From positions 62,001-126,000 of the forward strand of contig NZ_JACSPM010000004.1 in NCBI RefSeq assembly GCF_014837165.1: a stretch of DNA of 64,000 nt, read 5' to 3'. A program made the translations under genes and the position numbers. Source of the stretch: Microbacterium gallinarum. Its GTDB lineage: Bacteria; Actinomycetota; Actinomycetes; Actinomycetales; Microbacteriaceae. Under the pieces are notes generated by a model. That model was not told the origin of the DNA. It searched no databases and saw only the letters and a list, made by a program, of their open reading frames with translations. This document shows, piece by piece, positions 2,944-52,106 of this stretch; position 1 is the first letter of the stretch; every line of letters begins with the position of its first letter.

Positions 2944-3900
2944 ATGAGGGCGATCTGGAAGGGCGCGCTGACCTTCGGTCTGGTCAATGTGCCGGTCAAG
3001 GTGTATTCGGCGACCGAGGACCACGACGTGTCGCTGCACCAGGTGCACAACAAGGACGGCGGCCGCATCCGCTACCAGCGCATCTGCGAGATCGACGGCG
3101 AGGTCGTGCCCTACCAGGACATCGACAAGGCCTACGACGACGGCGACAAGACGGTCGTGCTCACGAAGGAGGACTTCGCGGCGCTGCCGGCCGAGAAGAG
3201 CCGCGAGATCGACGTCGTCGAGTTCGTGCCGAGCGACCAGGTCGACCTGCTCACCCTCGACAAGGCGTACTACCTCGAGCCCGACAGCGCGTCGCCGAAG
3301 GCGTACGTGCTGCTGCGCAAGACGCTCGAGCAGACGGATCGGACCGCGATCGTGCGGTTCTCGCTGCGTCAGAAGACGCGGCTGGCGGCGCTGCGGGTGC
3401 GCGGCGACGTTCTGGTGCTCCAGACCCTGCTGTGGGCCGACGAGGTGCGCGAGGCCGCCTTCCCGGCGCTGGACGAGACCGTGCGCATCTCGGCGAAGGA
3501 GCTCGAGCTATCGGCATCCCTCGTCGAGAGCTTCGCGAGCGACTTCGACCCGTCGGAGTTCTCCGACGAGTACCAGGAGGAGCTGCGCATCCTGATCGAC
3601 GCGAAGCTCGAGAAGGGCGATGCCCTCGACACCTCGGAGACTTTCGGCGACCACGAGGAGGAGGACACCGGGGGAGAGGTCATCGACCTCATGGAGGCGC
3701 TGCGCGCGAGCGTCGAGAAGTCGCGGGCCGCGCGCGAGGGCGGCGCGACGTCGTCGAAGAAGGACGAGGCACCCGCGAAGAAGCCCGCCGCCAAGAAGTC
3801 GACGGCGAAGTCGTCCGCGGCGGCGAGCACGTCGAAGAGCGACGCGAAGAAGTCCACCGCGAAGAAGCCGGCGGCGAAGAAGACCGCGAAGGCCTCCTGA
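2944..3900 (+). CDS. ku: Non-homologous end-joining protein Ku
   Basis: The protein has 318 residues from the ATG preceded by a G-run; translation beginning 'MRAIWKGALTFGLVNVPVK' is the classic Ku N-terminus. The core beta-barrel ring domain spans about 1-250 and would homodimerise around DNA ends and recruit LigD. The last ~70 residues are a Lys/Ala-rich, low-complexity tail (repeated AKK and KKS units), as in actinobacterial Ku, where such tails bind DNA. The gene is divergent from ligD, and its stop is 12 bp from the convergent dedA-like gene. Confidence 0.96.
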   Translation: MRAIWKGALTFGLVNVPVKVYSATEDHDVSLHQVHNKDGGRIRYQRICEIDGEVVPYQDIDKAYDDGDKTVVLTKEDFAALPAEKSREIDVVEFVPSDQVDLLTLDKAYYLEPDSASPKAYVLLRKTLEQTDRTAIVRFSLRQKTRLAALRVRGDVLVLQTLLWADEVREAAFPALDETVRISAKELELSASLVESFASDFDPSEFSDEYQEELRILIDAKLEKGDALDTSETFGDHEEEDTGGEVIDLMEALRASVEKSRAAREGGATSSKKDEAPAKKPAAKKSTAKSSAAASTSKSDAKKSTAKKPAAKKTAKAS

Positions 3901-3912
3901 CCTCGGACGCGG

Positions 3913-4704
3913 TCAGCCGCGCGGCGCCTCGCCCTCGTGCTGCCCGTGCTCGGGGCCGCGGTCGAAGATGTCGGCGTCGAGCACGAGCGCCTCGGCCTCG
4001 TCGTGGTCGGTCACGACGTCCTCACCCGCCGCAGCGGCCTTCTTGGCCTTGCTGCGCTCGCGGAAGTAGTGCCACAGCGTCACGACGGCGGTGCCGCCGA
4101 CGGCGGCGAGCAGGATGAGATCGATGTAGTTCTCGACGAAGGTGGCCACCGGCGGGATGAAGCCGATCAGGTAGCCGAACATCGTCAGGCCGAAGCCCCA
4201 GATCACGGCGCCGATGAAGTTGTAGAGCGTGTACTTCCACTTGTTCATGTGACCGACGCCGGCGGCGACGGGCGCGAAGGTGCGCACGATCGGCACGAAG
4301 CGGGCGAGGATGATCGTGAGCCCGCCGAAGCGCTCGAAGAACGCGTTGGTGCGCTCGACGTTCTTGACGCTGAAGAGGCCGGACTCCTTCTTCTCGAAGA
4401 CCGAGGGTCCGCCCTTGTGGCCGATGTAGTAGCCGACCTCGCCGCCGATGAACGCGGAGAGACCGATCAGCAGGGCCACCCACCAGACGCTGAGGCCGAA
4501 CACGCCGTTCGGCGCGTAGTCCTGGGGGTGCGAGAGCAGGCCGGCGATGACGAGGAGCGTGTCGCCCGGCAGCAGGAAGCCGACGAGCAGGCCGGTCTCG
4601 GCGAACACGATGAAGCACACGACGACGAGCGCCCACGGGCCGGCCCAGTCGATGATCGCGGCCGGATCGAGCCAGGGGATGAGAGCAGTGGGCACGGCGT
4701 GCAC
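3913..4704 (-). CDS. DedA family integral membrane protein
   Basis: 263 residues with about five hydrophobic segments. DedA hallmarks are visible: 'FAETGLLVGFLLPGDTLL' near 33-51 and the basic signature 'RFVPIVRTFAPVAAG' near 138-152. The C-terminal ~45 residues are charged, with His/Asp/Glu-rich stretches, and probably cytoplasmic. DedA/VTT proteins are implicated in lipid-carrier or phospholipid flipping and proton-motive-force homeostasis; the exact substrate here is unknown. It is convergent with ku and starts 62 bp from the tRNA-Leu gene, on the same strand. Confidence 0.9.
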   Translation of the reverse strand: MHAVPTALIPWLDPAAIIDWAGPWALVVVCFIVFAETGLLVGFLLPGDTLLVIAGLLSHPQDYAPNGVFGLSVWWVALLIGLSAFIGGEVGYYIGHKGGPSVFEKKESGLFSVKNVERTNAFFERFGGLTIILARFVPIVRTFAPVAAGVGHMNKWKYTLYNFIGAVIWGFGLTMFGYLIGFIPPVATFVENYIDLILLAAVGGTAVVTLWHYFRERSKAKKAAAAGEDVVTDHDEAEALVLDADIFDRGPEHGQHEGEAPRG

Positions 4705-39180: not shown

Positions 39181-39687
39181 TCAGCGGAAGCCTTCGCTCT
39201 GCGTCATCTCGTCCGCCACGCGGACGCCGTAGTGATAGGCGAGCTTTCCGCCTAGCCAGCCCGAGGCGCCCAATGCGGCGAGCCCGAGCAGACTGAGGAT
39301 GAAGCCGACGATGCTGACCTCGTCGTCGTCGGCGGACCACCGGATCAGTAGGTTCACCAGGAACAGCACCGTGACGACCAGGTTGATCGCCATGTGGATG
39401 GTCGCTGTCCGGTGGGCGGGCGTGCCGCGCTGCAGCTGGGTGTAGTCGAGGAATCCGACGACGGCGGCGAGCAGAGCGCCGATGATGCCGATGAGGATGA
39501 GGACGCGGGCGCCGACGACGTACGGCGTCGGGTCTTCGGCCACGAAGCCGATGACGTCGAACACGATGCTCGCCACCCAGGTGCCGATCGGGATCGTCAC
39601 GAGGATCGGGTGGAAGGGGTGCCCGTACGGGCCGGCGACGATCGAGCGGGGGCGCTTCGCGCGTTCCTGTGCAGTGCGGTCGGTCAT
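39181..39687 (-). CDS. DUF2231 family four-helix membrane protein
   Basis: 168 residues from the ATG at 39687 with AGGAGAAGG upstream. 'GHPFHPILVTIPIGTWVASI' is the hallmark DUF2231 first helix, followed by three further hydrophobic segments and a short cytoplasmic tail. Family members occur with redox and haem proteins; function unknown. It is divergent from the NhaA-thioredoxin gene. Confidence 0.82.
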   Translation of the reverse strand: MTDRTAQERAKRPRSIVAGPYGHPFHPILVTIPIGTWVASIVFDVIGFVAEDPTPYVVGARVLILIGIIGALLAAVVGFLDYTQLQRGTPAHRTATIHMAINLVVTVLFLVNLLIRWSADDDEVSIVGFILSLLGLAALGASGWLGGKLAYHYGVRVADEMTQSEGFR

Positions 39688-39853: not shown

Positions 39854-41749
39854 ATGACGAATCTGACGATCATCCAGCAGTCGCCCGATCCCGAACAGGT
39901 CGCGGAGCGTTCGCGCACGCGCCGTTCGATCGCGGACAAGATCCGCGGCATGGGCCAGAACCGCATCGGGGCTCTGCTCCTCCTGCTCGCCACGGTGGTC
40001 GCGATCCTGTGGGCGAACTTCGCCACGGCCTCGTACGAGGCGTTCTGGGAGACCCATCTGACGATCGGCGTCGGCGATCTGCAGCTCGACTTCACATTGC
40101 ACGCGATCGTGAACGACGCGCTCATGGCGATCTTCTTCTTCACCGTCGGTCTCGAGGTGCGGCGGGAGTTCGCCATCGGCGAGCTGACGAGCTGGTCACG
40201 CGCCCTGGTGCCGGTGATCGCCGCTGTGGCGGGACTGGCGCTGCCCGCGCTGCTGTTCGTGCTGGTCGCGATGGGATCGGGGTACAAGAACGCGTGGGGA
40301 ATCGTGATCTCGACCGACACGGCGTTCCTCGTCGGCGCGCTCGCGCTCATCGGCCCGCGGGTGCCCGGGAGGTTGCGCGTCTTCCTCCTCGCCCTCGCGG
40401 TGGTCGACGATATCGGGGCGCTGTCGATCATCGCGATCGTCTACACGGCGAACTTCACACCGCTGCCGCTCGCGGTCGCCGCAGTCGGCCTGGTGGGCGT
40501 GTACTTCACGCGCTACCTGCCCAGCGGTCGGGGGCCGGTCTACGCGACGCTGTCGATCATCGTGTGGCTCGCCTTCCTGGCATCGGGCGTGCATCCGACG
40601 TTGGCCGGCGTCGCGATCGCGCTGCTCGTGCCCGTCTACCGTCCCGACCGTCGCGACGTGGAGCACGCGCTCGAGCTGGCCCGGACCTTCCGGCAGTCGC
40701 CGAACAGCGAATACGCGCGCGCGGCGGCCAACAGCCTGCGCGAGTCCATCTCGATCAACGAGCGCCTGCAGTCCGCGTACGCGCCCTATGTCGCCTACGT
40801 CATCCTGCCGCTGTTTGCACTGGCCAATGCGGGCGTGGTGCTCAGCCCCGAAGTGCTCCAGGGCGCCGTGGTGTCCTCGCTCACCTGGGGCATCGTGGCA
40901 GGCCTCGTCGCGGGCAAGCTCATCGGGGTGTTCGGCTCCGCCGCGCTCATGAAGATCACCGGCATGGGTGAGTTCGGCCCCGGCCTGACTCTCGACCGGA
41001 TCGCCGGGGGCGCGGCGCTGTGCGGCATCGGCTTCACCATCTCGCTCTTCATCGTCGACCTGGCCATCGACGACCCGCTCGCGCAGAACGAGGCGAGGGT
41101 CGGCGTGCTCGCGGCATCCGTCATCGCATTCATCCTCGCGACGATCATCTTCCGCATCTCCGACGCGATGCACACCGACGTCGACCCCGGCCAGACGCTG
41201 CTGCGCCCGGTGGACCCGAAGCGCGACCACATCTTCGGCTCGCCCGATGCCCCGTTCACGATCGTCGAGTACGGCGATTTCCAGTGCGGGTTCTGTCTCA
41301 AGGCGTCGGGGTCGATCCACGAGGTGTACGAGGAGCTCGGCGACCGCCTGCGCTACGTGTGGCGACATGCGCCGCTCACGCAGTACCACCCGAATGCGCT
41401 CGCCGGGGCCGAGGCCTCGGAGGCGGCCTCGCTGCAGGGCAGGTTCTTCGAGTTCGAGCGCGGGCTGTTCACCGATCAGGAGCATCAGCGGCCGTCCGAC
41501 ATCGTGCGCCTCGCCCGCGACCTGGGCCTCGACGTCGACAGGTTCGAGCGGGATCTCACAGCACCGGAAGTGACCGGTCGAGTGCAGGACGACATGCTGG
41601 ATGCCGAGGCCATGGGCATCACGTCCGTGCCGACGCTCTTCGTGAACGGCCGTCGTCACACCGGTCCGTACGACGCGCAGTCGCTCATCCGCGCCCTGTC
41701 CGAAGGCCCGCCGGAGGCGACCCCCGAACCGCAGCACCCCGGAGGGTGA
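39854..41749 (+). CDS. NhaA Na+/H+ antiporter fused to a DsbA-like thioredoxin domain
   Basis: 631 residues from the ATG at 39854. The N-terminal NhaA part (about 1-430, about 12 helices) has 'NDALMAIFFFTVGLEVRREF' and 'VISTDTAFLVGALAL', and 'ALAVVDDIGALSIIA', whose Asp pair matches the ion-binding Asp163/164 of E. coli NhaA. The C-terminal part (about 445-631) is a DsbA/thioredoxin domain with 'YGDFQCGFCLKAS' (CxxC near 477-480) and cis-Pro in 'SVPTLFVNG'. It would couple Na+/H+ exchange to a thiol redox site. The stop overlaps a GTG of the next gene; the operon continues with two more redox genes. Confidence 0.92.
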   Translation: MTNLTIIQQSPDPEQVAERSRTRRSIADKIRGMGQNRIGALLLLLATVVAILWANFATASYEAFWETHLTIGVGDLQLDFTLHAIVNDALMAIFFFTVGLEVRREFAIGELTSWSRALVPVIAAVAGLALPALLFVLVAMGSGYKNAWGIVISTDTAFLVGALALIGPRVPGRLRVFLLALAVVDDIGALSIIAIVYTANFTPLPLAVAAVGLVGVYFTRYLPSGRGPVYATLSIIVWLAFLASGVHPTLAGVAIALLVPVYRPDRRDVEHALELARTFRQSPNSEYARAAANSLRESISINERLQSAYAPYVAYVILPLFALANAGVVLSPEVLQGAVVSSLTWGIVAGLVAGKLIGVFGSAALMKITGMGEFGPGLTLDRIAGGAALCGIGFTISLFIVDLAIDDPLAQNEARVGVLAASVIAFILATIIFRISDAMHTDVDPGQTLLRPVDPKRDHIFGSPDAPFTIVEYGDFQCGFCLKASGSIHEVYEELGDRLRYVWRHAPLTQYHPNALAGAEASEAASLQGRFFEFERGLFTDQEHQRPSDIVRLARDLGLDVDRFERDLTAPEVTGRVQDDMLDAEAMGITSVPTLFVNGRRHTGPYDAQSLIRALSEGPPEATPEPQHPGG

Positions 41750-41751
41750 CG

Positions 41752-43380
41752 ATGGCAGATGTGGATCCGGTGCTCAGCCCCATCTTGACGGACGCACAGT
41801 GGGAGCGTCTGCGCCGGTTCGGCGTGCCCGAGCAGGTGCAGTCGGGAGATTACGTCTTCCGCTCCGGTGATCGCGAGTACGACCTGATCCTCGTGGACGA
41901 GGGCCAGATCGAGGTCGTGCGCGACTCGCTGTTCTGGATAGAAGAGGCGGTGATCGCGCACCTGGGGCCGCGCACGTTCGTCGGCGAACTCGGCCTGCTC
42001 AACGGGCAGGGTGCGTTCCTGTCCGCGCGGGCGACGACTCCGGCCCGCGTGCTGCGAGTGCCGCGACCCGAGCTGCGGCGGCTCATGGCCGAGGACGACG
42101 AGCTGTGCGACCTCGTCCTGCATGAACTGTGGGCGCGCCGGGAGTCCCTGCGTCGCGGCCCCGCCTCGCTGACGTTGAAGTTCGTCGGCCAGAGCACCTC
42201 GAGCGACTTCCTCGCCCTGCAGCGTTTCGCCGAGCGTCTCGATCTCGTGCACAAGAGCGTCGCTCTCGCGCCCGGCGAATTCGGTGTGCACGAGAACCTC
42301 GGGGTGACCGAGGACGACCTCCCGATCGCGTACATCCAGGGCGAGCCGATTCCACGGGCGACGCCGGGGATGGTCGCCGAGCGACTCGGGCTGAGCTACC
42401 AGGCCGCCAGTGATGAGGTCGTCGACCTCGTCGTGATCGGCGGCGGCCCGGCGGGCCTGGCCGCCGCGATCTACGGCGCGTCGGAGGGACTCAGCACCGT
42501 GTTGCTCGACGCCGTGGCGCCCGGCGGCCAGGCGGCCTCGACGTCGCGCATCGAGAACTTCCTCGGCTTTCCTTTCGGCGTGAGCGGCGGCGACCTCATC
42601 GGCCAGGCGAGCCTGCAGGCGCTGAAGTTCGGTGTGCGCGTATACGCCCCCTGCGAGGCTGTGAAGCTCGACCCTGTCGAGGATCGCCAGCTCGACGTGA
42701 CTCTCGCCGACGGCCGTGTGATCCGAGCCCGCAGTGCCATCGTGACCTCGGGAGCGGCGTATCGACGGCTGAACCTCGAGCGCTGGACCGACTTCGAACG
42801 CTCCGGCATCTATTACGCGGCGACGCAGCTCGAGCTGCGTCAGGTGATGGACTCGCCGGTCGTGGTCGTCGGCGGCGCGAATTCGGCCGGACAGGCATCC
42901 CTCTATCTGGCAGCGAATGGATGCCCCGTCCACCTGGTCGTGCGCGGCCCCGAACTCGGCACCCGCATGTCGTCGTATCTCGTGGACCGGTTGACGGAGG
43001 AGCCGCGCGTGCAGGTGCACACCGGGGCGAACGTCGTCGGACTGGACGGGGGAGCCGGTCTCGAGCGCGTGCACATCGACAGCGTGGGCGATGTCGACGC
43101 GCGCGGGCTGTTCTGCTTCATCGGCGCAGACCCCGCGACGTCCTGGCTGCCGACGCTCGACCGCGACGCCGACGGGTTTCTGCGCACCGGCACCGACATC
43201 GCTGCGCAGTCCCTCGCCCAATGGCAGCTTCTCGGGCGCGAGCCGCTGCCGTTCGAGACGGCCGTTCCGCGGGTGTTCGCCGCCGGCGACGTGCGGCGCG
43301 GATCGATGAAGCGCGTGGCCGCTGCCGTCGGCGAGGGGTCGAGCGCCGTGGCATCCGTGCATCGCGCGCTCGCCTTCTGA
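41752..43380 (+). CDS. Cyclic nucleotide-binding domain fused to thioredoxin-reductase-like flavoprotein, no CxxC
   Basis: 542 residues; the ATG has GGAGGG 6 bases upstream. An N-terminal CAP_ED-like cNMP-binding domain (about 10-130, 'GDYVFRSGDREYDLILVDEGQIEVV' region) is followed by a ~90-residue linker domain. A TrxR-like module follows (about 225-542): FAD motif 'VVIGGGPAGLAAAIYGASEG', NADPH motif 'VVVGGANSAGQAS', and 'VFAAGDVRRGS'. Where TrxR has CATC, this protein reads 'GIYYAATQLELRQ', with no cysteine, so it cannot use the usual dithiol relay; a ferredoxin/flavodoxin reductase-type role or an electron donor via another site is possible. It sits between the NhaA-thioredoxin and UBP genes. 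Confidence 0.88.
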   Translation: MADVDPVLSPILTDAQWERLRRFGVPEQVQSGDYVFRSGDREYDLILVDEGQIEVVRDSLFWIEEAVIAHLGPRTFVGELGLLNGQGAFLSARATTPARVLRVPRPELRRLMAEDDELCDLVLHELWARRESLRRGPASLTLKFVGQSTSSDFLALQRFAERLDLVHKSVALAPGEFGVHENLGVTEDDLPIAYIQGEPIPRATPGMVAERLGLSYQAASDEVVDLVVIGGGPAGLAAAIYGASEGLSTVLLDAVAPGGQAASTSRIENFLGFPFGVSGGDLIGQASLQALKFGVRVYAPCEAVKLDPVEDRQLDVTLADGRVIRARSAIVTSGAAYRRLNLERWTDFERSGIYYAATQLELRQVMDSPVVVVGGANSAGQASLYLAANGCPVHLVVRGPELGTRMSSYLVDRLTEEPRVQVHTGANVVGLDGGAGLERVHIDSVGDVDARGLFCFIGADPATSWLPTLDRDADGFLRTGTDIAAQSLAQWQLLGREPLPFETAVPRVFAAGDVRRGSMKRVAAAVGEGSSAVASVHRALAF

Positions 43381-43406
43381 TCCGCCCCTCGATGACAGGA
43401 GAGCCC

Positions 43407-43760
43407 GTGTCGGACAACGTCGATGTGACCGCCGCGCCGAGCGGCACGGGATGCGCGGAGTGCGAAGAAGCGGGGAGCTGGTGGTTCCACCTGCGGCGCT
43501 GTGCTGCGTGCGGACATGTCGGATGCTGCGACTCGTCGCTCGGCCAGCACGCCTCGGCGCATGCCCGGGAGACGGGCCACCGGCTCGTGCAGAGCTTCGA
43601 GCCCGGCGAGGACTGGTGGTGGGACTACGAAGCGGCGGGGTGGGCCGACGGCCCGGAACTGGCGCCGCCCCGGAGCCGGCCCGACACGCAGCCGTCGCCG
43701 GGACCCGACGGGCGGGTGCCGCGGGACTGGCGGGATGCGCTGCGCGCCGCCGGGCGCTGA
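43407..43760 (+). CDS. UBP-type zinc-finger protein
   Basis: 117 residues from a GTG with AGGAGAG upstream; an ATG at 43392 is the alternative. Zinc ligands follow the ZnF-UBP pattern: 'GCAECEEAG', 'LRRCAACGHVGCCD', 'GQHASAHARETGHRL'. In eukaryotes this fold binds the free C-terminus of ubiquitin; its bacterial ligand is unknown. The C-terminal half is Trp/Pro-rich and ends 'VPRDWRDALRAAGR'. It is 26 bases after the cNMP-flavoprotein and completes a compact three-gene module. Confidence 0.85.
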   Translation: MSDNVDVTAAPSGTGCAECEEAGSWWFHLRRCAACGHVGCCDSSLGQHASAHARETGHRLVQSFEPGEDWWWDYEAAGWADGPELAPPRSRPDTQPSPGPDGRVPRDWRDALRAAGR

Positions 43761-46319: not shown

Positions 46320-49300
46320 ATGAACGCTCACGCACGTTCAATCGTCGGATCAACTGGGGAAGGGCGATCAGCGCGCGCCATCGTCGTTGCGCTGATCGCC
46401 GCCGTCGCCATGGTGGCGACACTGATACTCGCGCCACCACCGACACCAGCGGTGGCGGCGACTGACGAGGATCCCTCGTTCGTTCTCACGCAGAACGACC
46501 TGGAGTTCATCCTGCGTCAGATCCAGATCTCGGAAGCGCACGCCGCCGACCAGACGAACCCGTCGAACTACACGCTGTACTGCCCCGACCAGCCGCGCGT
46601 CGCGCAGAACTGCGTCAACCACGTGAAGCGCCCCGCCGGCGTCCGCACGGTCGACGGCAGCTACAACAACCTGATCGATACGCACTTCGGCGCAACCGAC
46701 CACCCGTTCCCGCGTCTGCTCGAGCCCGAGTGGCGACAGGCCGAGCCCGAGGTCGCCACCCTCGAGTTCACGCCGAACACTCCGGAGCAGACCGAAATCT
46801 GCGACCCGGGTCTGACCTGCTATGAGCAGACGCAGGGCATCGTGTACGACAGCCACCCGCGTGAGATCAGCAACCTCATCGTCGACCAGACGATGAACAA
46901 CCCGGCGGTGGCGAACCAGTGGGAGGCGGGTACCGGCATCCAGGTGCCGGGAACGAACCGGGTGAACATCCCGAACACCGCCCCCGATGAAGAGCTGTCA
47001 GCGCCGTTCAACACCTTCATGGGCTTCTTCGGCCAGTTCTTCGACCACGGTCTCGACCTGGTCGGCAAGGCGGGCAACGGCAGCATGGTCGTTCCGCTGA
47101 AGGCCGACGACCCCCTCTACTGCCCGACGAGTGGGCAGCGTCCGAACGTCAACGACCCCGAGGAGCTCGTCGACTGCAACCCTGACGCGAACTACATCAC
47201 GCTCTCGCGCGCGACGCGCGTCGCCAACGGCACGGAGCACCAGAACCTCACGTCGCCGTTCATCGACCAGAACCAGACCTACTCGTCGCACCCGGCACAC
47301 CAGGTGTTCCTGCGTGAGTACATCGAAGGCCCAGACGGCCGCCCGCAGGCAACCGGTCGGCTGATCGAGGGCGAGAACGGCGGAATGGCGAAGTGGCGTG
47401 ATGTCAAGGCGCAGGCCACGAACATCCTCGGGCTGAGGCTGACGGACGCCGACCTGCTCGACGTTCCGCAGGTGCTCGTCGACCCGTACGGCAACTTCAT
47501 CCCCGGTGTGAACGGCTACCCGCAGTTCATCGTCGAGGGCGGCGGCTTCGTCGCCGGCGGAGCCGAGGGCGGAACGCCCGTGCCCGACAACGTGCTCGGC
47601 ACCGGTCACGCCTTCCTCGACGACATCGCACACGGCGCGACTCCGGTCGTGACCGAGGGCGGCGAACTGCTTCCGCGCTTCGACGAGGACGGCAGCCCGC
47701 TGCCTGACCCGGACGGCGAGCTCGCACTCTCCGGCTACGACAATGCGACGCTCGACGAGCACTACATCGCGGGCGATGGTCGAGTGAACGAGAACATCGG
47801 TCTGACGGCAGTGCACTCGGTGTTCCACGCCGAGCACAACCGCATGGTCGGCCAGATCGAGCGCCTGCTCGCCGGCGCCCAGGGTACCGAGTACCTGGTG
47901 GCGCAGGATTCCGAGGAGCGCGGCGGCCTCGCCGAGTTCGCCAAGGCCTTCCGTGGTGAGACCCACTCCTACAAGTCGGACGTGGACATCGACGACCTTC
48001 CCGGGTACGTGCCGAACCCCAACCCGGACAACGTGCAGCCGGTCGCCGGCACCGCGGACGACTGGTCGTACCAGGAGCGGCTCTTCCAGGCGGCGAAGTT
48101 CGCAACCGAGATGCAGTACCAGCACCTCGTGTTCGAGGAGTTCGCACGCAAGGTCGTTCCGACGATCGACGCGGTGGTGTTCAACGAGAACAGCTACGAC
48201 CCGAAGATCGATGCGTCGATCACCGCCGAGTTCGCGCACGTGGTCTACCGCTTCGGTCACTCGATGATGACCGAGGAGATCGGCCGCGAGCCGGTGCAGA
48301 ACACCGAGAACAACCTGATCGCGCCGAACGGCGCCGGCGATGTGTCGCTGCTGGACGGATTCCTCGCGCCTGACCTGTTCGACATGGGCGGCCAGCTGAG
48401 CCCCGAAGAGGCGGCCGGATCGCTCATCAACGGCATGACGTCGCGGGTGGGCAGCCAGATCGACGAGCACGTGGTGGACGTCCTTCGCAACAACCTGCTG
48501 GGACTCCCGCTCGACCTGCCGACGTTCAACCTGCTGCGCGGCCGCGATGTCGGCGTCCCGCCGCTGCAGGAAGCGCGTCGCTCGTTCTTCGCGGCAACGA
48601 AGGAGCCGAGTCTGGCCCCCTACGCCAACTGGGACGACTTCGGCCGGAACATCAAGAACGGCAACAACTTCGGTCGGGCGGGCGAGCGCGCCTCGCTGGT
48701 GAACTTCGTGGCGGCCTACGGCACGCACGAGACGATCCTCGACGCCGACACGATCGAAGAGAAGCGCAACGCGGCGGCACTGCTCGTCAACGGTGCACCG
48801 TTGGGTGAGGAGTTCGTGGTTCGCCTCGCCGGCTCGGATCGCTTCGAGACGGCCATGTCGATCGCGGAACGGCACTTCCAGGCACCGGTCCCGGTGGCGT
48901 ACATCTCGCGCGGGAACAACTTCCCCGACGCGCTGGCGGGCGGCCCGCTCGCGGCGGAGACGGGAGGCCCGATCCTGCTGGCGGCGCCCAACGACACGGG
49001 TGAGATCCCGCTGGCCACGAGAATCGCGCTCTCGAACCTCCAGCCGGAGCGGATCGTGATCCTCGGTGGGACGAGCGTCGTCGGTCCGCGTGCGTTCGCG
49101 TCCTACAACGAGATCGCGCCGACCTCGCGCATCGCCGGCGTGAACCGGTTCGAGACCGCAGCGAAGATCTCGCAGCAGCTCGAGCCCGGGCGCCGGGTGT
49201 TCATCGCCAACGGCATGAACTTCCCCGACGCACTCGCCGGTGCTGCCGTCGCAGCCGACCAGAGTGCAGCGATGCTCCTGGTTCAGCCCAACTCCATCCC

Positions 49301-52106
49301 GGCGGTGACGCGCACTGCTCTCGCAGCGCTCGACCCGACCGAGATCGTGGTGCTGGGTGGTACCGGGGCTGTGTCGGCGCAGGTGGCAGCGCAGCTGCGC
49401 ACCTACACCGACGGGCAGGTGGTCCGCCTCGGCGGTGCGAACCGGTACGAGACGGCACTGCAGATCGTGAACCACTTCTTCCCGAACGGCTCGGACACGC
49501 TGTACCTCGCGACCGGGGCGAACTTCCCCGACGCGCTGACGGCGACTCCGGCGGCCGGGATCAACGGTGCTCCGCTTCTGCTCGTCCCGCCGACCGGTCT
49601 CACGCCGGCGCTTCGCCAGAAGATCGCCGCGCTCAGCCCCGGGCGGATCTTCATCCTGGGTGGCAAGGGTGTCGTGAGCCTCGCAGTGGAGGAAGCGCTC
49701 CAGGCGTTCGCGCCGGCGCCTCTGTCCGCGCCTGAAGACCGTCTGGACTTCATGTTCAGCACGGGCACGTGGGCGAACACCGAGACGGGTCTCGACACGG
49801 TGGACTTCTGGATGGGCGGACTCGCAGAACGGCTCGATCCGTTCGGCGGCATGCTCGGCTCGACGTTCAACTTCGTGTTCGAGACGCAGCTCGAGAAGCT
49901 CCAGTTCGGTGACCGGTTCTACTACCTGTTCCGCAACCAGGGTGAGCAGCTGTTCGCTGCACTCGAGGGCAACACGTTCTCGGATCTCATCCAGCGCAAC
50001 ACGGATGCGTCCCACCTGCCGGCGGACATCTTCGCACTGCAGGATCCCGTGATCGACATCGCTGAGCAGGCTGCTCTCCCGGTGGGCCAGCGCGAGCCGG
50101 GTCTCAGCCTGGTCAACGGGCAGTGGCGCTGGCAGGGTGACGAGCACATCGCAATGCACGGCACCCCGGCGAACGACAACCTCCGGGGTGACGAGGGCGA
50201 CGACGCGATCTGGGGTTACGACGGCAACGACCGCATCGAGGGCGGGTCGGGCAACGACGCGCTCGTCGGCGGCAAGGGCGACGACATCATCACGGACTCG
50301 TTCGGTGATGACAACCTCAAGGGAAAGCAGGGTAACGACGCGATGCACACCGGACCCGGTGTCGACCTCGCGATCGGCGGCAGCGGCGACGACTTCATCA
50401 TGAACGGTGGTGGAGACGCCACGAGCATCTTCGCCGGCCTGGGTGATGACATCGTGCTCGGCACCTCCGGTCGCACCACGGTGTTCGGCGGTGAGCACGA
50501 CGACTGGGTCGAAGGATCCAGCCACGCCGACCTGCTGCAGGGCGACAACGCCGATCAGGCCCAGAATGACACTCTGGGTGGCAACGACGTGGTCGCAGGA
50601 CGCCTCGGAGACGACGACATCGAAGGCGAGGGTGGCGACGACATCCTCATCGGTGAGCGCTTCGGCACCGACCGTCACCTGGGCAACCTCGGGTTCGACT
50701 GGCTGACCTACTACGGTCAGACGCAGGGTGTCGAGTCGGACTGGGCCTTCAACCGGATCTACGAGACGCAGGAGCAGCTGCGGTCTCGCTACGACCTGCT
50801 CGAGGCGCTGTCGGGTGGAGCCGGCAACGACGTCCTGCGCGGTCCGCTCGTTGAGCCGGATGACCTCACCACGGTGGCTGAGGCTCCGCTCAACAAGGCA
50901 ACGCAGGCCACGCTCGACCTGGTCGAGGGATTCGAGGCCATGCTCAAGCCGGTCGTGAACGGCGTGGCAATCGGGGACTTCACGCTCCCGATCATGCGCG
51001 ACGCTCCTGAGATCGACGCGGACGGTGTCCACAAGGTGATGATCGGCGGCCCCGGTGCCGACACGATCGAAGGACGCGGTGGCAACGACTACCTCGACGG
51101 CGACGCGATGCTCCGCGTGCGCCTCCGGACGGGTACCCCGGGCAACTACACGTACTACGACAGTGCGGCGGAGTTGCAGGAAGCCGTGTTCTCCGGTGCC
51201 ATCAACCCGGGCGCGATCGACATCGCTCGCGACATCGTCTACGACGACTCGGACGCGATCGACATCGCACAGTACAACGACGTGTTCGATGCCTACACGG
51301 TGAGTGAGCTGGGCTTCGCAGGCTCGGGGTACTGGCGAGTGGAGCACACGGCGGTGCAGGAAGCCGAGGAGAGCGACGGAGTCGACGTGATCCGCGGGTT
51401 CGAGCGTCTGCAGTTCGCAGACGGCTGCGCCAACATCGTCGACGGTCAGCTGGTCTCGTGTGCCCAGACGGCCTTCGCGACGATGTCTCCGACCGAGCCG
51501 ATCGAGGGCCAGCCGGTGACGGCCATGCTCTGGAACGACGCGGCACGCACCGTCCCGTTCAACGAGCCGGGTGCCACCAACCTCCGCTTCACGTGGTGGG
51601 CCGGCGAGGGCGACACGGCGGACACCGTCGGCGAGTGGGAGGTGCTGGCACTGAACCAGGTGTCTCCGACGTACACCCCGACGCAGGAGGCGGTCGGCCA
51701 GTTCCTGAGGGTCACGGTGAGCTACCTCGCCGCGAACGGTGAGTTCCGCACCGCGGAGCGGGCCGTGTCGACAGCTCAGGTGCAGGATGTCCAGTTCCCG
51801 GGTGCATTGACCTTCACGGTCGCTGCCCCCTCGGTCGGAGATCCGATCGCCGCGGGGATCCCGACGGACCCCGACGGGCTGTTCGACGAGGGCGCTCTCA
51901 CCTACGTGTGGTCCTCCTCGGGAGTCGATCCGGCCGTCGCTACCGAGGCGGACTGGGTGGCGTACAACCCGGCCCAGACCGGGGCGATCTACGCTCCGAC
52001 TGCCGACGACATCGGTCGCTGGATCCGGGTGACGATCACCTACCAGGATGGATCGGAGGCGCAGCAGACCGTCAGCGCGAACAGCACGTTCGCGGTGGTC
52101 GAGTAG
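46320..52106 (+). CDS. Secreted animal-type haem peroxidase with inserted CWB2 repeats and RTX repeats
   Basis: 1928 residues; GGAGG upstream sets the ATG. A signal peptide (~1-48) leads to a peroxidase domain with 'FFGQFFDHGLD' (distal His near 243), 'HSVFHAEHNRMV' and 'FAHVVYRFGHSMMTEEI' (proximal His near 646), then 'FNLLRGRDVGVPPL'. Three cell-wall-binding repeat 2 units follow (about 833-1127; each with 'RFETA/RYETA' and 'NFPDAL'). The peroxidase fold then resumes with 'FWMGGLAERLDPFGG' and 'FGDRFYYLFRNQG' (about 1141-1200). RTX-like GGxGxDxx repeats occupy ~1280-1460, and two Ig-like domains ~1717-1928. It is predicted to be wall-bound or secreted, Ca2+-stabilised, and to oxidise halides or phenols with H2O2. 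Confidence 0.9.
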   Translation: MNAHARSIVGSTGEGRSARAIVVALIAAVAMVATLILAPPPTPAVAATDEDPSFVLTQNDLEFILRQIQISEAHAADQTNPSNYTLYCPDQPRVAQNCVNHVKRPAGVRTVDGSYNNLIDTHFGATDHPFPRLLEPEWRQAEPEVATLEFTPNTPEQTEICDPGLTCYEQTQGIVYDSHPREISNLIVDQTMNNPAVANQWEAGTGIQVPGTNRVNIPNTAPDEELSAPFNTFMGFFGQFFDHGLDLVGKAGNGSMVVPLKADDPLYCPTSGQRPNVNDPEELVDCNPDANYITLSRATRVANGTEHQNLTSPFIDQNQTYSSHPAHQVFLREYIEGPDGRPQATGRLIEGENGGMAKWRDVKAQATNILGLRLTDADLLDVPQVLVDPYGNFIPGVNGYPQFIVEGGGFVAGGAEGGTPVPDNVLGTGHAFLDDIAHGATPVVTEGGELLPRFDEDGSPLPDPDGELALSGYDNATLDEHYIAGDGRVNENIGLTAVHSVFHAEHNRMVGQIERLLAGAQGTEYLVAQDSEERGGLAEFAKAFRGETHSYKSDVDIDDLPGYVPNPNPDNVQPVAGTADDWSYQERLFQAAKFATEMQYQHLVFEEFARKVVPTIDAVVFNENSYDPKIDASITAEFAHVVYRFGHSMMTEEIGREPVQNTENNLIAPNGAGDVSLLDGFLAPDLFDMGGQLSPEEAAGSLINGMTSRVGSQIDEHVVDVLRNNLLGLPLDLPTFNLLRGRDVGVPPLQEARRSFFAATKEPSLAPYANWDDFGRNIKNGNNFGRAGERASLVNFVAAYGTHETILDADTIEEKRNAAALLVNGAPLGEEFVVRLAGSDRFETAMSIAERHFQAPVPVAYISRGNNFPDALAGGPLAAETGGPILLAAPNDTGEIPLATRIALSNLQPERIVILGGTSVVGPRAFASYNEIAPTSRIAGVNRFETAAKISQQLEPGRRVFIANGMNFPDALAGAAVAADQSAAMLLVQPNSIPAVTRTALAALDPTEIVVLGGTGAVSAQVAAQLRTYTDGQVVRLGGANRYETALQIVNHFFPNGSDTLYLATGANFPDALTATPAAGINGAPLLLVPPTGLTPALRQKIAALSPGRIFILGGKGVVSLAVEEALQAFAPAPLSAPEDRLDFMFSTGTWANTETGLDTVDFWMGGLAERLDPFGGMLGSTFNFVFETQLEKLQFGDRFYYLFRNQGEQLFAALEGNTFSDLIQRNTDASHLPADIFALQDPVIDIAEQAALPVGQREPGLSLVNGQWRWQGDEHIAMHGTPANDNLRGDEGDDAIWGYDGNDRIEGGSGNDALVGGKGDDIITDSFGDDNLKGKQGNDAMHTGPGVDLAIGGSGDDFIMNGGGDATSIFAGLGDDIVLGTSGRTTVFGGEHDDWVEGSSHADLLQGDNADQAQNDTLGGNDVVAGRLGDDDIEGEGGDDILIGERFGTDRHLGNLGFDWLTYYGQTQGVESDWAFNRIYETQEQLRSRYDLLEALSGGAGNDVLRGPLVEPDDLTTVAEAPLNKATQATLDLVEGFEAMLKPVVNGVAIGDFTLPIMRDAPEIDADGVHKVMIGGPGADTIEGRGGNDYLDGDAMLRVRLRTGTPGNYTYYDSAAELQEAVFSGAINPGAIDIARDIVYDDSDAIDIAQYNDVFDAYTVSELGFAGSGYWRVEHTAVQEAEESDGVDVIRGFERLQFADGCANIVDGQLVSCAQTAFATMSPTEPIEGQPVTAMLWNDAARTVPFNEPGATNLRFTWWAGEGDTADTVGEWEVLALNQVSPTYTPTQEAVGQFLRVTVSYLAANGEFRTAERAVSTAQVQDVQFPGALTFTVAAPSVGDPIAAGIPTDPDGLFDEGALTYVWSSSGVDPAVATEADWVAYNPAQTGAIYAPTADDIGRWIRVTITYQDGSEAQQTVSANSTFAVVE

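Follow-up and report, generated by a model that had tools for sequence, protein, structure and literature searches.

A 64-kb window of Microbacterium gallinarum (the whole stretch of DNA that was analyzed) carries three consecutive genes on the + strand at 39854-43760. They encode an NhaA-type antiporter fused to a thioredoxin-type domain (N), a flavoprotein (F) and a zf-UBP zinc-finger protein (U). The conserved core found across phyla is F plus U, without the antiporter, and the trio as a unit is an arrangement at the level of the genus. Judged from the aligned sequences, this core is a flavoprotein with sites for flavin adenine dinucleotide (FAD) and NAD(P)H that lacks a redox disulfide, bears an exchangeable input domain and is paired with a zf-UBP protein. 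The two input wirings of the flavoprotein, through a cyclic nucleotide-binding (CNB) type domain or through a phosphorelay receiver, are a new finding of this analysis, as is the position of F-U at the end of heat-shock operons on actinobacterial plasmids. The locus was tentatively read as a small stress-tolerance operon built on this core, in which F would dock on the tail of N and tune antiport in the manner of KefF; taken as a whole chain, this reading was given somewhat less than an even chance.

Results

Domain architecture and two input wirings of the flavoprotein

F (542 aa; 41752-43380, +) matched cNMP_binding (PF00027; 51 bits, cut-off 27.5) and Pyr_redox_2 (106 bits) in Pfam, and was modelled by AlphaFold2 with a predicted local distance difference test score (pLDDT) of 86.9 and a predicted template-modelling score (pTM) of 0.85. 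The protein comprises a CNB input domain (residues 27-115; 41830-42096, +; Pfam), a middle domain (residues 134-222; 42151-42417, +; Foldseek and superposition) and thioredoxin reductase (TrxR)-like FAD/NAD(P)H domains (residues 221-542; 42412-43377, +; Pfam, cofactor motifs and superposition). Predicted alone, the middle domain had a glutaredoxin or glutathione S-transferase (GST) N-terminal fold, with a Foldseek probability of 1.00 to glutaredoxins, and superposed on 7c12 with VIA Z 9.6 and a root-mean-square deviation (rmsd) of 2.3 over 71 aligned residues. This domain is an addition to a preliminary description of the locus, which had otherwise named the genes correctly: an NhaA-thioredoxin, a CNB-flavoprotein and a UBP zinc finger, closely spaced on one strand, were all confirmed in place by Pfam and TIGR matches.

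At least 80 F loci of named organisms were collected by a pattern scan, in which proportions among the matches listed are not frequencies. The 80 listed loci span Actinomycetota, Pseudomonadota, Acidobacteriota, Bacteroidota, Cyanobacteriota, Verrucomicrobiota, Gemmatimonadota, Myxococcota and Fibrobacterota. Two architectures predominated among them: class A (38 loci), to which the window F belongs, joins a CNB domain to the glutaredoxin fold and the TrxR-like domains, and class B (35 loci) has a receiver domain in the CNB position; seven loci were of other types. Of the 35 class B loci listed, 30 have a gene for a CNB-type histidine kinase next to F. At one locus (L082; 5274-6941, -), a CNB-HATPase histidine kinase has a zf-UBP finger fused at its C-terminus; its neighbors are a second zf-UBP gene and the gene for a receiver-TrxR-like flavoprotein. 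Residues 6-139 of the kinase, its CNB-type domain, are similar to the corresponding domain of the family 2B encapsulin shell proteins, at a score (52 bits) that falls short of the model cut-off.

A reductase-domain tree placed class A, as a clade of 51 rows (Shimodaira-Hasegawa-like approximate likelihood ratio test, SH-aLRT, 99), inside class B, with two outlying CNB rows apart; the outgroup branch was long and the root is unsure. The most economical explanation is a two-component system whose sensor domain was transferred to the enzyme. Since the input domain is exchangeable between a CNB-type domain and a phosphorelay receiver, the output of F is likely to be regulated, and to this extent the preliminary proposal of a gated flavoprotein was borne out. 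Shorter flavoproteins of about 420 aa, with glutaredoxin-fold and TrxR-like parts and no input domain, were seen at four loci (L157, L158, L166 and L155); UBP directly follows in three of these, and ClpB/Hsp20 genes are nearby in two.

Absence of the thioredoxin reductase disulfide

The FAD- and NAD(P)H-binding Rossmann motifs were invariant across the F family, and the model has the TrxR fold (Z 34.9, rmsd 2.0 against 3r9u). The site equivalent to the TrxR CxxC was located by alignment at SGIYYAATQLELRQV (residues 351-365; 42802-42846, +). At the CxxC positions (354-359), Cys was found in none of 139 rows (66 from the phylum sample described below and 73 from named organisms), and the place is taken in both classes by an aromatic motif, G[VI]YYxAxxxE. 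An active-site cysteine pair in the glutaredoxin-fold domain was likewise found in none of the sequences aligned, and this domain of the window F has no cysteine at all. A single Cys at position 365, present in most of the sequences (33 of 37 in class A, 30 of 35 in class B), is replaced by Val in this genus. With no CxxC at the catalytic site throughout the family, F should be unable to pass electrons in the manner of a thioredoxin reductase; TrxR chemistry was rejected for F on this evidence, and with it the earlier suggestion that electrons flow from the flavoprotein to the NhaA-linked thioredoxin. Two of the 73 named-organism sequences (L175 and L169, both receiver-type) have a CRVC motif near F residue 326, at a distance from the place of the TrxR CxxC; it may be a new thiol site.

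F scored 167.7 bits on TIGR01292 (TrxB), far under the curated cut-off of 343.45, and a separate true TrxB (400.7 bits) is encoded in the same genome. The F model fitted flavin-reducing (FR) conformers at rmsd 2.0-2.7 (2.0-2.6 for 1f6m, 5mh4 and 3r9u), and flavin-oxidizing (FO) structures at rmsd about 7; such an FR-like model would suit an enzyme in which NAD(P)H need only reach the flavin. F shares its TrxR fold and cofactor motifs with TrxB and AhpF, and AhpF also has a thioredoxin-fold domain ahead of its reductase domain, but F differs from both in having neither the reductase CxxC nor a cysteine pair in the glutaredoxin domain, and in its added CNB or receiver domain. FNR2, the TrxR-like ferredoxin/flavodoxin-NADP+ reductase (e.g., 8c16), and YpdA are members of the TrxR superfamily that do not use a CxxC. 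They too share the fold (Z 28.4 for FNR2), whereas their sequence scores were lower than that of TrxB, and their input domains and gene context are different.

The phosphate-binding cassette of the CNB domains of PKA and CRP contains a Glu followed 9-10 residues later by an Arg. The CNB domain of F retains the Gly-Glu of this cassette (Glu79) and has Ala-Phe at positions 88-89, and Arg is not among the common residues of these columns in the 38 class A rows. Because the phosphate-binding Arg is absent, a classical cyclic nucleotide, which had earlier been suggested as the ligand of F, appears doubtful. Sensing of cyclic AMP was rejected on the same grounds, despite the one class III cyclase encoded in the genome.

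Co-occurrence of the flavoprotein, zinc finger and antiporter

Genes were tallied in 296 genomes drawn across the phylum and in 119 congeneric genomes. In relatives, gene calling relied on a simple script, and profile matches alone revealed some of the short UBP genes. Co-occurrence p-values from these tallies ignore phylogeny, and a corrected test was made on a gyrB tree of 54 randomly drawn genomes of the genus. Across the phylum, zf-UBP was present in 76 genomes and F in 75, and both were present in 59 against 19.3 expected. Within the genus, all 36 genomes with F also had U (16 expected, p 8.5e-18), and the link held on the gyrB tree, where 6.1 independent pairs agreed with it and none opposed it (median p 0.03). 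The two genes were adjacent on the same strand in 29 of the 36, with U after F in 18 and before it in 11; one genome of this set has a copy of each order. Among the 80 listed loci of named organisms, UBP lay within 2.5 kb of F in 22. In another genome of the same family (L071), a zf-UBP gene (3137-4050) lies 12 kb from an NhaA-Trx gene and overlaps a gene for a membrane protein of the EXPERA/EBP family.

N was found in 30 of the 119 genus genomes and together with F in 25 (9.1 expected, p 1.4e-12 uncorrected). It lies directly upstream of F on the same strand, with a gap of 6-82 bp, in 16 genomes (16 of the 36 with F); N, F and U are contiguous in this order in 12, and in two more U is divergent on the other side of N. 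This N-F(-U) arrangement is not due to chance. On the F tree, adjacency of N requires five changes, so that it has persisted in much of the genus but was lost or displaced in places. Of the co-occurrence across actinobacteria that the preliminary description had asked to be checked, the F-U part is conserved and the trio stands within the genus; N was near none of the 80 listed F loci from other organisms.

Pfam tallies gave no recurrent neighbors other than UBP, kinase and chaperone genes. The flavoprotein of Arthrobacter sp. zg-Y238 (L117) branches inside those of this genus and is 67% identical to the window F, which suggests acquisition by transfer; neither UBP nor NhaA-Trx was found near it. 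A search of open-licence PubMed Central (PMC) papers found none on the trio, the zf-UBP/TrxR pair, or CNB-TrxR or receiver-TrxR fusions. A Sphingomonas ‘thioredoxin reductase’ of the EcfG regulon (PMC6599016) could be a relative but was not traced.

Stress-operon context

F and U end a dnaK-grpE-dnaJ-cbpM-clpB-trxA-U-F operon on several Rhodococcus plasmids and on plasmids of Nocardia farcinica and Streptomyces, and a DUF1931 gene often comes after it; one Streptomyces record lists no UBP gene between trxA and the flavoprotein. Two genomes of the class (L075 and L078) have this operon on contigs, and chaperone genes were present in these and other plasmid or chromosomal relatives (L261, L262, L266, L267 and L270). 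In a metagenome-assembled genome of Solirubrobacterales (L119), DnaK/GrpE/DnaJ/ClpB genes are divergent beside F, and in the Burkholderiaceae the F-UBP pair adjoins ClpB and Hsp20 genes in Caballeronia and Paraburkholderia (L158 and L166). A thioredoxin-fold partner recurs beside F-U: trxA in the heat-shock operons and before F in L121, a DsbA-like gene that overlaps UBP in L056 and lies beside or near it in L006, and the NhaA tail in this genus. Gene context elsewhere thus points to a role of the F-U pair in stress protection rather than in thioredoxin reduction.

A comparable setting is the locus of heat resistance (LHR/tLST) of Enterobacteriaceae, a mobile stress island that carries Clp and small heat-shock protein genes together with a Na+/H+ antiporter gene (PMC4563881). 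On actinobacterial plasmids the F-U pair sits in similar islands with DnaK, ClpB and TrxA genes. The window lacks the chaperones, and it differs from LHR/tLST in gene families and gene order.

The zinc-finger protein

U (43407-43760, +; zinc finger about 43452-43631) matched zf-UBP (PF02148) at 45.9 bits against a cut-off of 22.7 and is the sole zf-UBP protein of the genome. Seventeen residues were invariant over 18 bacterial U sequences from several phyla, including nine Cys/His besides His33; the invariant Cys/His should hold zinc. The closest solved relative was 2ida (E 2.3e-35), which we take to be RPA1320 of Rhodopseudomonas palustris. It belongs to the same subfamily (C..C, W.HLR.C..CG...CCD.S, H...H) and was deposited as a hypothetical protein with no function assigned. 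HDAC6 and USP domains came next (E 1e-5 to 1e-2).

U has the fold family and zinc ligands in common with the eukaryotic ZnF-UBP domains of HDAC6, USP5 and USP33. Binding of the RLRGG end of ubiquitin by HDAC6 depends on R1155 and Y1156 (PMC12000391). Where this Arg-Tyr pair anchors the ubiquitin C-terminus, every bacterial U aligned has instead Asp/Asn-x-Ser (D47/S48-type) residues. The preliminary description had proposed the zinc finger as an adaptor or C-terminus sensor, and N of this genome does end in Gly-Gly; among its orthologues, only the closest relative shares that end. With the pocket Arg/Tyr missing and the Gly-Gly end not conserved in the genus, reading of the C-terminal Gly-Gly of N by U was rejected as a model, and U is more likely an adaptor for a folded protein surface.

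The antiporter and layout of the locus

N (631 aa; 39854-41749, +) matched Na_H_antiport_1 at residues 35-432 (402.6 bits) and, in its tail, Thioredoxin_4 at 457-615 and DSBA at 469-606 (Pfam). Its score on TIGR00773 (277 bits, over the cut-off of 254) and its motifs STDTAF (from 153) and VVDDIGAL (from 183) place it among the NhaA proteins, and Na+/H+ exchange is predicted. The Thioredoxin_4/DsbA domain (41222-41698, +) has an active-site CGFC (41285-41296), and the CxxC is retained in all NhaA-Trx fusions examined. In E. coli NhaA the C-terminus is in the cytoplasm, and by analogy the thioredoxin-type domain of N would be cytoplasmic.

F starts 2 nt past the stop codon of N, and U starts 11-26 nt past F, depending on whether its start is the ATG at 43392 or the GTG at 43407; the latter has AGGAG ahead of it and is more likely. 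Given this close spacing, the three genes probably form one operon read as one transcript. A promoter/terminator scan of the locus gave nothing above chance: no intrinsic terminator was found between the genes of the trio, and no sigma-70-like promoter stood out. A DUF2231 membrane protein gene (39181-39687, -) is divergent from the operon, whose promoter should lie in the intergenic region that the two share. The anatomy of the trio as given here is near certain. None of the three proteins was matched by PADLOC, and a role in anti-phage defence was rejected. Further along the window (46320-52106, +), a very large secreted-type protein combines an animal haem peroxidase domain, three cell-wall-binding CWB2 repeats and RTX calcium-binding repeats.

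Discussion

In the favored explanation, binding of a ligand to the CNB domain, equivalent to phosphorylation of the receiver in class B, would switch F; switched F would use NAD(P)H to reduce an acceptor other than a disulfide, or would act as a sensor of NAD(P)H state. U would serve as the adaptor of F, binding a protein surface and coupling F to its target, which in this genus would be the cytoplasmic thioredoxin-type tail of N. Activated F, with U, would dock on this tail and tune Na+/H+ exchange under redox or heat stress, with no disulfide reduction of the TrxR type. The model for such docking is KefC-KefF, in which an antiporter and a soluble NAD(P)H oxidoreductase are encoded in one operon and the antiporter bears a regulatory, redox-related domain (PMC10224563, PMC11150392). 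KefC is activated by its soluble subunit KefF, and mutations that diminish the enzymatic activity of KefF leave activation intact (PMC10224563). N and F likewise share one operon, but the components differ: KefC is a KefC-type (CPA2) antiporter with an RCK/KTN domain and KefF has a flavodoxin fold resembling flavin mononucleotide (FMN) quinone reductases, whereas here an NhaA with a thioredoxin domain is joined by a protein of TrxR fold. The comparison is one of analogy only. KefF-like docking seems the likeliest action of F at the antiporter.

Several observations weigh against this explanation. No NhaA or thioredoxin-tail gene was near F in any of the 80 listed loci from other named organisms, and the F-N link was not significant on the gyrB tree (3.5 pairs the same way, 0 opposite, median p 0.25), a test of low power. 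There are no chaperone genes within the 64-kb window, so that the stress role is extrapolated from relatives. The Cys at position 365 has been lost in this genus, and members of the family may therefore differ in chemistry. The first two of these points also speak for an ordinary stress-gene neighborhood, in which F, gated by a ligand, would reduce a small electrophile, a quinone or O2 with NAD(P)H, U would be its regulator, and N would be merely co-regulated and not in contact with either. The F-U pair does occur without NhaA almost everywhere among the listed loci, F and N are apart in 9 of the 25 genomes that have both, and neighbors other than UBP, kinase and chaperone genes do not recur. 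Against it, N has stayed directly upstream of F in 16 genomes despite divergence of F to about 75% identity, and thioredoxin-fold genes have come to stand by F-U independently (trxA in the heat-shock operons and in L121, DsbA-like genes in L056 and L006). This neighborhood explanation was considered a serious possibility, somewhat less likely than the favored one.

F might also be a pure sensor, whose FAD/NAD(P)H domains read the redox state while the input domain takes a second signal, and whose output is contact through the zf-UBP adaptor, with no turnover. Replacement of the catalytic disulfide by the same aromatic motif in both classes would suit such a protein, as would the persistence of KefC activation when KefF activity is diminished; the zf-UBP finger fused in L082 to the kinase of the same system is what would be expected of a signalling part. 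The invariant cofactor-binding residues and the NADPH-to-flavin conformation of the model suggest hydride transfer instead, and the sensor was thought distinctly unlikely. The scheme of the preliminary description, in which F as a thioredoxin reductase reduces the tail of N and thereby gates antiport while the zinc finger senses a free C-terminus, can draw on the TrxR fold and conserved cofactor motifs of F, the intact CGFC and Gly-Gly end of N, and the thioredoxin-fold partners that recur nearby. It is contradicted by the lack of a CxxC at the catalytic site in the whole F family and of any cysteine in the glutaredoxin-fold domain of the window F, by the replaced R1155/Y1156 pair in U and by the poor conservation of the Gly-Gly end, and was regarded as very improbable.

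Because members of the F family do not have the residues for that reaction, the name ‘thioredoxin-disulfide reductase’ misleads in the many genomes that carry them, where they are annotated as ‘cyclic nucleotide-binding domain-containing thioredoxin-disulfide reductase’ or ‘FAD-dependent oxidoreductase’. F is the first consistent partner for bacterial zf-UBP proteins. Kept across many phyla, wired to a phosphorelay or a CNB domain, and ending heat-shock operons, the F-U pair marks an unstudied branch of bacterial stress signalling. In its most far-reaching form, which is on present evidence unlikely, this would be a widespread signalling module in which a receiver- or ligand-gated, TrxR-derived flavoenzyme without a disulfide works with a ubiquitin-type zinc finger whose binding partner is not a ubiquitin C-terminus, a two-component system turned one-component that here directly regulates a Na+/H+ antiporter through its thioredoxin-type tail. 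The antiporter operon of this genus offers a test case, a redox-tailed Na+/H+ exchanger whose possible regulation by an accessory flavoprotein could be set beside KefC-KefF.

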